Shown: positions 3,001 through 53,765 of the stretch, one piece after another
Layout: each line of letters starts with the position of its first letter
Numbering within the stretch: the first letter of the stretch is position 1
NCBI GenBank assembly: GCA_012845835.1
Contig: JABAKD010000025.1
Span: forward strand, 1,825,001 to 1,889,000
Source of the DNA: Undaria pinnatifida
Lineage: Eukaryota; Sar; Phaeophyceae; Laminariales; Alariaceae
DNA: 64,000 nt
Direction of reading: 5' to 3'
Notes under the pieces: model-generated
What the model saw: only the letters and a program-made list of their open reading frames with translations
The model's database searches: none
What the model was told of the DNA's origin: nothing
Made by a program: the position numbers and the translations under genes

Positions 3001-6000
3001 GATAGGGACGGCATGTTGTTCACGTTCGTTGTCAGGATGCGCGCGGTGCGAAGAGGCGCCAAGTGATTACTGTTGGCGGGGGCAAGCGGCTTGCAGCTAT
3101 CTTCCATCGTTTTGTCTCCCCGAGTCCGGGGAATAACCAATCCATTCATTCCTTACCCCCTAATTAATGATGTGTTCAATATGCACTTCGTGCAAGCGAC
3201 GAAACAGCTGCTGATAGAGTCAAGAGGTGTGGGTCCGAGGAATCAAGCTGCTTGCGAACCAATCCTGAACATGGTGCGAACGTGACTCAGCAGCTGCTGT
3301 TAAGGTCTACCGCCGACGACAACATGAGACAGGAACCAAAAAGAACAAGCTCCAGCAACGGTTTTTCTGGCATGATTACCACGACACCCAAAAAAGAAGC
3401 ACGTCAAAACATAACAAAACAAAATCAAAATCAAGTGACGCCCAAGCATAAGCCACGCCCACGGGGTTCACGTACAAGGTCTACGTGCCCATTTCCTACC
3501 AGGTATAACCTATTAAAAGATATTTGTCTATTTTTATTGCATCCGTCCCATTATAGCTGTTGACCGTGTCTACGACCGCCGGCCAAAGGCTTACGCCTCC
3601 AATATTAGCATCGGGTATCACCACACAACTGACGTTGCGTAATCATATCTCTTACCAGGTACCAGGTAACTATTACCAGGTAGCGGAAATTACTTAATAC
3701 CTAGGATCCATCCTTTGCGTTAAAGATGTTTACGACCCGGTACCTACTACCAGGCACCGGTAATTACTTACATACCTAGGGTCCATCCTTTGCGCTAAAG
3801 ATGTTTACGACCAGGTACCTATTACCAGGTACCGGTATTTACTTACATACGTTGGATCCATTCTTTGCGTTGAAGACGTTTACGACCAGGTACCTATTAC
3901 CAGGTACCGGTAATTACTTACATACGTAGGATCCATTCTTTGCGTTAAAGACGTTTACGACCAGGAAACCTATTACCAGGTACCGGTAATTACTTACATA
4001 CCTAGGATCCATCCTTTGCGTTAAAGATGTTTACGAACTCCGACTTCGGGCTTGCGCCGCCGCTATCAGCGTCAGGTACTACATACCGCATATATTCCCA
4101 AGTACCTAACACACACCACATGTATTACCAGGTAACTAACACACTACTTTGGATCCGTCCTCGGCGTTAACGATGTCTATATACGAACGTCGGCGTCTCA
4201 GGCTTGCGACGCCTACATCAACACAATATATCGCTGTCTACAAAACGTAACACCAGAAACCGGATGCTGGCATCTACTTACCAGGTACCTATGATATAAT
4301 ACTTCGAAGTATGATGCTATTGTACTAGGACATGCTTAGCCTGGATCTACTAAACCAGATACTCATATCTATTCACGAGGTACCTATTATATGACACAAT
4401 ATGATACTACTGCCCTAGGCATTGGTCAAGTACCTTGGATCCATCCTTGGCGTTGACAATCTCTACGAACTCCGGCTTCAGGCTCGCGCCGCCGACGAGG
4501 AAGCCGTCGATGTCGGCCTTCGATCCCAAGGTGGGGGCAGAGCCGGCGTTCACGCTGCCGCCGTAGATGATGCGGATCTGAACAACAAACGAACGACCGA
4601 CGGAACAAAACACGTGGTTATTGATTACAAGTTCTTTTCACCGGTCGAATTAGTTCTCGCGGGTCGTGTCGGAGAAGGGTGGCCCGACCCGACCCGACCC
4701 GACCCAACCCGTAATACTTGGAAAATATTAGCTTGTTCGGTACATTCAGTGACGGCCTCCACAAGCCGCATAACGAAAGGCATGTATTGATACTGTACTA
4801 CAGAGATAATTTGCCATGTCTATCAACCATATCTGATGAGACCAACCTTATCCGATAATAACCACATATAATAAGACCAACCTCATCTGATAAAACCTAT
4901 CTTATCTTACAGACAAACCTTATCGCTTTTTCGATTACATTTCTGCATGGGTCCCAAAACGGTTAAAACAACCAGCAGTTATCACGGGTCGGTTCCCTTT
5001 TCGTGGATCGGGTCGGTTCAGAATGAGCCGACCCAAACCGTGAGAATTGAAAACCTCCCGACCCGACCCGACCCGACCCATGATACTTCAAAAGCACATC
5101 CTGATCTGATCCGCGGGTCGCGTAGTAACCTGTGAAAGGCCCTGAAAAAAAACATTTATACAGGTGCCAGGAATGAATTAAAACCAGAAAAAAAAGGCAC
5201 GCCTAACGAACACACCGCAAAGCAAGGATATTGCGGGGCGTTACCAGCTGGCGTGCCTAAAATAAATGCAGTAAATCATACGACGTACACTTACATGCAC
5301 CTGATATCGAAAAACGCACGATTAGACTATATACCGTAGGGGTGGTTTAGCAAAAAACAATCACAGGGCGTATACACAGCGGTTACGTTACTGACCTTCT
5401 CCGCCACGGAAGCAGACACGTTCTCGGCGATCCACTTGCGGAGCCCCTCGTGGACCTGCGGGGAAGAAGAACGAAAACAAAAAACATGCGAAAAACGGAA
5501 TCGTCAAAACCCCGCATAAACGAAAGAGGAAATGGTTCAACGCGACGCCCATCACCAGATGAACCGGAGCTGCACGAGGGAGCGCTGTACTGTTCAGACC
5601 TAGGCTCAAGTTCAATAAAACAGGTTAAACCTGCTTGACGTCAGCGCCTAACCTCAACCCCGGCATCCTGAGGAATTTTTTCGGAATGAGGATATAATAT
5701 GGATTTTAATGTCGAATATCAAAACCATACTTTTTCAACAGGACCAAGCCGTCTATTATAATCTACAGCATTGACACGAGCAAGCGTATGTAAGAAAATA
5801 TGCTGCAGTGGGACGCAGGGATGCCGGTGCTAGTTTGACACATCTTCCTTCTTGTTTCAGGTTCAATACTAATAATAATAGTAACACCTTTGAGACCTCA
5901 GAGGGAACAAGCACCCGATACACATGATGGCCACATAACGTTTTGTTGTGTTGTGTGTTTGCTCATCCCATCGACTATTTTCGCGCTCTTTCTTTCGCCT

Positions 6001-53394: not shown

Positions 53395-53765
53395 TGGGGC
53401 TAGGGGTAGGGGTAAGGGCAAGGGTATGGCCTCGACCTGAAGACGCTCATGGGGAAGGAAATGGACACGACGGTGGGTGGCAGGGGTAGGGAAAATGATA
53501 AGGGTAGGGGTAGGCGTGGGGGTACGTATAGGAACGGGGGTATGTTTAGGCGTGGGGGTACGTATAGGGTTGGGGGTACGTATATGGGTGGGGGTGCGTA
53601 TATGAGTGGGGGCACGTATATGAGTGAGGGTACGTATATGAATGGGGGTAGGTATAGGAGTGGGGGTAGGTATAGGAGTAGGGGTAGGTACATAGGGGTG
53701 GGGCGTAGGTGTAGGGGTGGGGCGTAGGTAAGGAGTGGGGCGTAGGTACAGGAATGAGGGGTAGG
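53395..53765 (+). repeat. Purine/T-rich minisatellite GGGGGTACGTATAGG
   Basis: Units of 18 bp or so such as GGGGGTACGTATATGGGT and GGGGGTAGGTATAGGAGT continue the sequence that follows the exon-edge copy. The same AGGGGTAGG flavour is already present right after the real donor (53027-53100). Confidence 0.8.
53425..53480 (+). repeat. Decayed copy of the 3' edge of kelch exon 2
   Basis: GCCTCGACCTGAAGACGCTC, then GGAAATGGACACGACG|GTGGGTGG, matches the exon end GCCTGGATCTTAAGACTCTC, then GGAAACGGAGATGACG|GTGGGTGA, at about 80 percent by eye. The donor is intact in the copy, 460 bp downstream of the real donor. Confidence 0.88.

Follow-up and report, generated by a model that had tools for sequence, protein, structure and literature searches.

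Exon ends, together with their splice sites, are copied into the neighboring introns by short tandem duplication in a 64,000-nt stretch of DNA (the window) from the brown alga Undaria pinnatifida. The window harbors three genes, encoding a TPI-GAPDH fusion, a DUF3228 protein, and a kelch protein, and all three are affected, as a first-pass annotation of the same DNA had proposed. The edge copies are best explained as tandem duplications of short segments (spacing ~75–460 bp) that chance to span an exon–intron junction, a reading to which a probability of about 0.8 is assigned. They look like part of a general local-duplication habit of these introns, not aimed at the edges. The basis for this reading is the position of the copies, their straddling of the junction, their tandem order, and their edge-only exon content; further support is provided by the loss of the reading frame in the copies and by similar local duplication inside introns. 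The analysis covers three genes with 36 intron-facing exon edges on one sequence, a small sample.

Detection of Exon-Edge Copies

Twenty exons were modeled from orthologues: 10 in TPI-GAPDH (E), 7 in DUF3228 (X), and 3 in the kelch gene (K). They delimit 17 complete introns, all with GT...AG ends, which have a median length of 1506 bp, a mean of 3046 bp, and a total of 51.8 kb. Mean intron sizes of 1,057 bp and 703 bp have been published for Saccharina japonica and Ectocarpus, respectively (PMC4421812). For the TPI protein, identity is 88% with the best database match, 83% with Dictyota dichotoma, and 82% with Ascophyllum nodosum, and identity to Ectocarpus reaches 87% for the last DUF3228 exon and 93% for the kelch part. 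A TPI gene is present as first annotated, though not TPI alone but fused to GAPDH, and the earlier count of about 32 exon edges rises to 36 in the rebuilt models. The exons previously numbered 5 and 1 in DUF3228 are taken to be X7 and X3, respectively, from the inferred numbering.

For each edge, the outer 60 nt of the exon were compared with the adjacent intron over a length of up to 2 kb; 200 dinucleotide shuffles supplied the null, and the reverse complement served as a control. Six of the 36 edges are significant, with p values between 2e-13 and 1.4e-4. Three belong to TPI (E7 3′, 2e-13; E4 3′, 4e-6; E5 5′, 5e-6) and three to the kelch and DUF3228 genes (K2 3′, 5e-6; K2 5′, 3e-5; X7 5′, 1.4e-4). 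These are the same six edges for which the first-pass annotation had described decayed copies in the neighboring intron. The seventh that it had called weak, X3 3′, does come next and is weak (p 3e-3), and the other 29 edges have p values of at least 0.039. No edge among the 36 falls below p 0.03 in the reverse-complement control.

When the other introns of the window serve as the null, with 1-kb targets, the same six edges rank at the top under each of three scoring schemes, and none of 150 random stretches attains their score. Across the three schemes, p ranges from 9e-5 to 0.03 for X3 3′ and from 7e-4 to 0.06 for E10 3′, and these two are possible further weak cases.

The copied exon content is restricted to the edges. 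With 40-nt exon tiles matched to the facing intron at p<1e-3, the edge tile matches at 6 of 36 edges (E4, E5, E7, X3, X7, and K2 5′; K2 3′ is missed at this tile length), compared with 1 of 62 tiles lying 20–59 nt into the exon and 0 of 113 interior tiles, which lie 60 nt or more into the exon. On the intron side, the 60 nt beside each of the six edges are repeated deeper in the intron (p 2e-6 to 5e-4), and the intron flank of E10 3′ is repeated as well (exon-side p 0.044). The copies reach to within 3 nt of the junction at all six edges. Because the copies lie this close to the junction, the intron flank is repeated with them, and exon interiors yield no match, each duplicated unit must straddle a junction. 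Tandem duplication of whole exons is rejected, since the copies hold only the outer part of the exon and the interior tiles are negative.

A blastn search of the 20 exons against the window (E≤0.05) returns 13 matches outside the exon of origin. Eleven lie in adjacent introns (E4, E5, E7, and X7), one is antisense at X1, and one falls between K1 and K2. This search, in which only exons served as queries, gives no sign that pieces of exons are dispersed through the window.

Anatomy of the Duplicated Units

The donor side is affected at E7, E4, and K2, and the acceptor side at E5, K2, and X7 (Table 1). When the exon's own unit is included, there are eight units at E7, four at E4, three at E5, and two each at K2 5′, K2 3′, and X7, such that the number of extra copies per edge is 1–7. 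Unit alignments run through the exon part, the splice site, and the intron part together, with a junction spacing that is shortest at E7 (75 bp) and longest at K2 3′ (462 bp). The well-aligned exonic part spans 31–63 nt at the six edges, and gapped alignments at E5 reach 81–88 nt at 66–68% identity.

Table 1. Copies of exon edges, and weak candidates, on the intron side of their junctions
Copied edge	Position	Strand	Remarks
3′ edge of TPI-GAPDH E7 (exon 4434-4577), donor included	3522..4216	-	seven-copy array
75-bp tandem repeat within the E7 array	3661-4036	-	five of the seven copies; Tandem Repeats Finder
3′ edge of TPI E4 (exon 15619-15722), donor included	15187..15544	-	copies 15494-15544, 15336-15379, 15187-15238
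5′ edge of TPI E5 (exon 12757-12895), acceptor included	12989..13217	-	copies 12989-13081, 13126-13217
5′ edge of last DUF3228 exon X7 (35581-35818)	35476..35516	+	one copy, acceptor junction lost
5′ edge of kelch K2 (exon 52432-53010), acceptor included	52295..52348	+	one copy
3′ edge of kelch K2, donor included	53425..53479	+	one copy
3′ edge of DUF3228 X3 (exon 28748-28830)	29066..29083	+	weak candidate, 18 nt; intron side not below 0.01
3′ edge of GAPDH E10 (exon 238-352)	186..211	-	weak candidate, absent from the first-pass annotation; intron side p 3e-4

Most copies are ~64–90% identical to the exon edge. At E7 only, the five inner 75-bp units show 90% matches and the outermost copy is 64% identical to the exon edge. 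Mismatches between exon and copy are unequally distributed over the three codon positions, at 40/191 (21%), 27/192 (14%), and 50/191 (26%), which would be consistent with additional synonymous substitution in the exons, the copies within an array not being independent of one another. The motif TACCTGGTAATA, with up to two mismatches allowed, occurs 30 times in the window versus 4.2 expected; 12 of the 30 occurrences lie in the intron after E7 (3494–4287), and the rest are scattered.

Splice Sites in the Copies

Proteins joined at the exon-proximal sites match their orthologues, and use of a copied site would lead to in-frame stops at all 15 readable junctions, one of which belongs to a weak K2 match. 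Both observations agree with the earlier proposal that splicing keeps to the exon-proximal site and that the additional copy is turned into intron. The copied sites are inferred to be unused, and the stops that follow them suggest that regular splicing is undisturbed.

The splice site itself was said to be included in the copies, which holds for the donors, where GT is kept in 9 of 11 copies with a readable junction, and for three nearby acceptor copies, where AG is kept. It does not hold at X7, where the acceptor junction is gone; AG is also lost in the weak match 1.5 kb upstream of K2. Site strength was scored with a small matrix of 19 donors and 17 acceptors. Five copies outscore the site in use, namely, one of the three at E4 (10.6 vs. 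7.5), the one at K2 3′, both at E5 (for example, 8.4 vs. 2.6), and the nearby one at K2 5′. At E7, none of the seven copies scores as high as the site in use. The comparison is tilted toward the copies, because each used site was left out of the matrix when it was itself scored.

Strong copied sites whose use would introduce stops are what would be expected of alternative or decoy sites that tune expression via nonsense-mediated decay. Such a function is nevertheless very improbable, given the uniformly lower scores at E7, the loss of GT in 2 of 11 donor copies and of the junction at X7, and a scoring scheme that favors copies; the amphioxus repeats discussed below are also reported, in the available text, not to disturb splicing (PMC3902484).

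Edge Preference and Intron-Wide Background

These introns commonly contain local tandem duplications. In a matched test, in which a copy must reach at least 12 nt to either side of a point, random intron points are straddled at rates similar to those of exon edges. At p<1e-2, 7 of 36 edges are straddled versus 248 of 1306 intron points (Fisher 0.54); at p<1e-3, the counts are 7/36 and 181/1306 (Fisher 0.23), the seventh edge being E10 3′ and not X3 3′; and at p<1e-4, they are 6/36 and 156/1306 (Fisher 0.26). Omission of the 1 kb beside the six edges lowers the point counts to 119/1167 (p<1e-3) and 99/1167 (p<1e-4), with Fisher values of 0.074 and 0.086, respectively. Overall, 8–14% of intron points and 17–19% of edges are straddled at p<1e-3 or 1e-4.

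A looser test employed 419 random intron points, each with two sides (838 tests), at p<1.5e-4. Here, a match abuts the point in 50 tests and occurs at all in 70, as compared with 6 of 36 edges (Fisher 0.023 and 0.084, respectively); reverse-complement matches number 10 of 838. The matched test is preferred, because it demands that the copy extend on both sides of the point. The point matches are grouped into 23 clusters and are therefore not independent.

A specificity of duplication for exon edges is not borne out by these comparisons, and a preference for them is unproven. A process favoring edges, by which splice junctions duplicate more often owing to transcription pausing, RNA–DNA hybrids, or AGGT-like short repeats, would account for the excess of 6–7 of 36 edges over 8–14% of points and for the Fisher value of 0.023 against point-abutting matches in the looser test. 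It is considered unlikely, as the excess is not significant in the matched test at any threshold, with or without the arrays, and exon-side conservation prolongs the visibility of edge copies: an exon-edge copy is recognizable for longer than an intron–intron pair, because its exon side hardly changes. A broader version, in which junction duplication is a lineage-wide process in brown algae that favors boundaries over intron interiors, is kept only if the exonic piece is short, supplies spare splice sites, and lengthens introns, is compatible with an edge excess of 1.0- to 2.8-fold over intron points but likewise appears doubtful.

Several observations weigh against chance duplication as the full account. 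The excess of edges over intron points varies between 1.0- and 2.8-fold with the test and threshold chosen, and one comparison reaches p 0.023. The exonic part of 31–63 nt amounts to under half a unit at all six edges, which is rarely expected from random break points, although this is tempered at E5, where both copies extend further in gapped alignments (81–88 nt). Moreover, the intron background is in part compositional, because reverse-complement straddling in the matched test is found at 3.2% and 2.1% of points (0 of 36 edges).

Proposed Mechanism

On the preferred reading of chance tandem duplication, a short segment across a junction was duplicated in tandem, some duplicates expanded to minisatellite arrays, and all have decayed. 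Strand slippage or unequal exchange may have made and expanded the units. The duplication would be tolerated, since the whole exon and its used site are preserved in the unit that adjoins the exon body. An intact exon requires this unit, such that the first unit would be in use at a donor and the last at an acceptor. Extra units would stay in the intron and drift, lengthening it by the length of the unit. Edges would look special mainly because the conserved exon side keeps old copies recognizable.

A different prediction follows if the introns were born when exonic segments containing AGGT were duplicated in tandem, namely, that the start of an intron resembles the start of the downstream exon and its end the end of the upstream exon. 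AGGT-like junctions are indeed common in the window, and 8 of 17 downstream exons start with GT. However, none of 34 such far-side comparisons reaches p<0.01 (smallest 0.015), and the copies lie on the near side, contain intron sequence, and comprise up to seven extra units. AGGT intron gain is consequently rejected as a source of these copies and is given almost no weight, which bears out the earlier remark that the outcome here differs from that route.

Contribution to Intron Length

If an array is measured from the junction in use as far as its most distant copy, edge arrays make up ~2.3 of the 51.8 kb of complete intron, or 4.5%. Arrays take up 60% of the intron after E7 (1.5 kb) and 7% of the one before X7; the E4–E5 intron (2.7 kb) is occupied to 15% and 12% from its two ends, and the 12.5-kb and 6.2-kb kelch introns to 1.0% and 7.5%, respectively. 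The 7.3-kb and 5.7-kb introns contain none of the six copied edges. At 4.5% of intron sequence, the edge arrays do not explain the longest introns, contrary to the first-pass proposal that such copies, if general, would help account for very long introns.

Repeats called by Tandem Repeats Finder amount to 7% of the window. A 13-bp unit is repeated ~17 times with 92% matches at 41526–41751, in the first kelch intron. In the 7.3-kb TPI intron, with no exon near, 11213–11635 comprises two 208-bp copies with 90% matches, a case of the same type of local duplication within an intron.

A transposon scan found nothing in seven pieces at the default threshold. At E≤1 with eight pieces, two weak copia-type domain matches appear, both below Pfam's cut-off (RVT_2, E 0.0022; Pol_BBD, E 0.0037); the same scan also gives weak matches to unrelated domains, two on the copia-matching pieces and one on a third. 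The weak copia-type traces are located at 9832–10170 (+) in the 7.3-kb TPI intron and at 24152–24647 (−) in the 5.7-kb DUF3228 intron.

Relatives and Gene Neighborhood

Of 11 DUF3228 proteins inspected upstream of X7, seven have a normal preceding exon. The stretches before X7 in the other four were back-translated and compared in eight tests, a check that presumes that these stretches are unspliced DNA. P0122, whose exon is 91% identical, shows no copy in the 192 nt upstream (p 0.97 and 0.95; p 0.04 at the protein level), and P0129 has no X7-edge copy upstream (p 0.23 and 0.48). Signals in P0124 (p 0.01 and 0.54) and P0127 (p 0.05 and 0.015) are weak and not significant after eight tests. The X7-edge copy is recovered from the window's own sequence as a positive control (0/200). 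Searches of prokaryote genome contigs and of viral contigs returned no relatives of K2.

The TPI-GAPDH fusion occupies 238–20804, with 10 exons in the window (GAPDH exons at 238–2932), and runs past the left end. Among the database matches, other stramenopiles carry the same fusion. TPI-GAPDH and DUF3228 are arranged head to head (20667–21470). The best matches in Ascophyllum, P0004 and P0126, both lie on a contig of 110,603 bases, and this equal size suggests that the two genes are neighbors there too.

Because their exon side is a conserved reference, edge copies form a record from which duplication rates can be measured. They also provide natural material for the study of how the spliceosome chooses among several similar neighboring sites, and, as pseudo-exon ends, they are a caution to gene predictors.

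Comparison with Known Systems

Internal gene duplication, as reported by Gao and Lynch 2009, can include splice sites and adds exons or introns, unlike the copies described here, which end as intron.

The closest parallel is in amphioxus, where minisatellites at exon–intron boundaries, termed "mirages," are described in Adh3 and the globin genes, with PGBD5 and troponin C added; splicing is reported there to be undisturbed and length to be unstable, according to the available text (PMC3902484). The fate of the extra copy as intron is accordingly not new but already on record in amphioxus (PMC3902484, available text). In the listed titles and abstract openings of open-licence papers, no such boundary repeats were found outside amphioxus, and in the same searches the term "mirages" for such repeats was found for amphioxus only.

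Tandem duplication supplies the extra splice sites both here and in AGGT intron gain; in the latter, an exonic segment is doubled and a new intron arises, whereas here existing junctions are copied and existing introns grow (PMC3443670, available text). DNA repeat expansion creates introns in Cryptococcus, where repeats inside genes remodel gene structure by slippage, unequal crossing over, or conversion, as may be the case here; it is intron number that changes in Cryptococcus and, per the present models, intron length alone in Undaria (PMC2395259, available text).

The Undaria edge repeats resemble amphioxus mirages in the structural features that can be tested. As in mirages, the repeat unit spans the intron–exon boundary with both exon and intron parts at six edges, and donor and acceptor boundaries are both affected (three each). 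They differ in their brown algal host, in the greater decay of most copies (~64–90% identity to the exon edge), and in the length of some units, to ~460 bp. That one in six exon edges in three genes carries mirage-like repeats, and this in an unrelated multicellular lineage, suggests that genomes with long introns generally produce such repeats through local tandem duplication.
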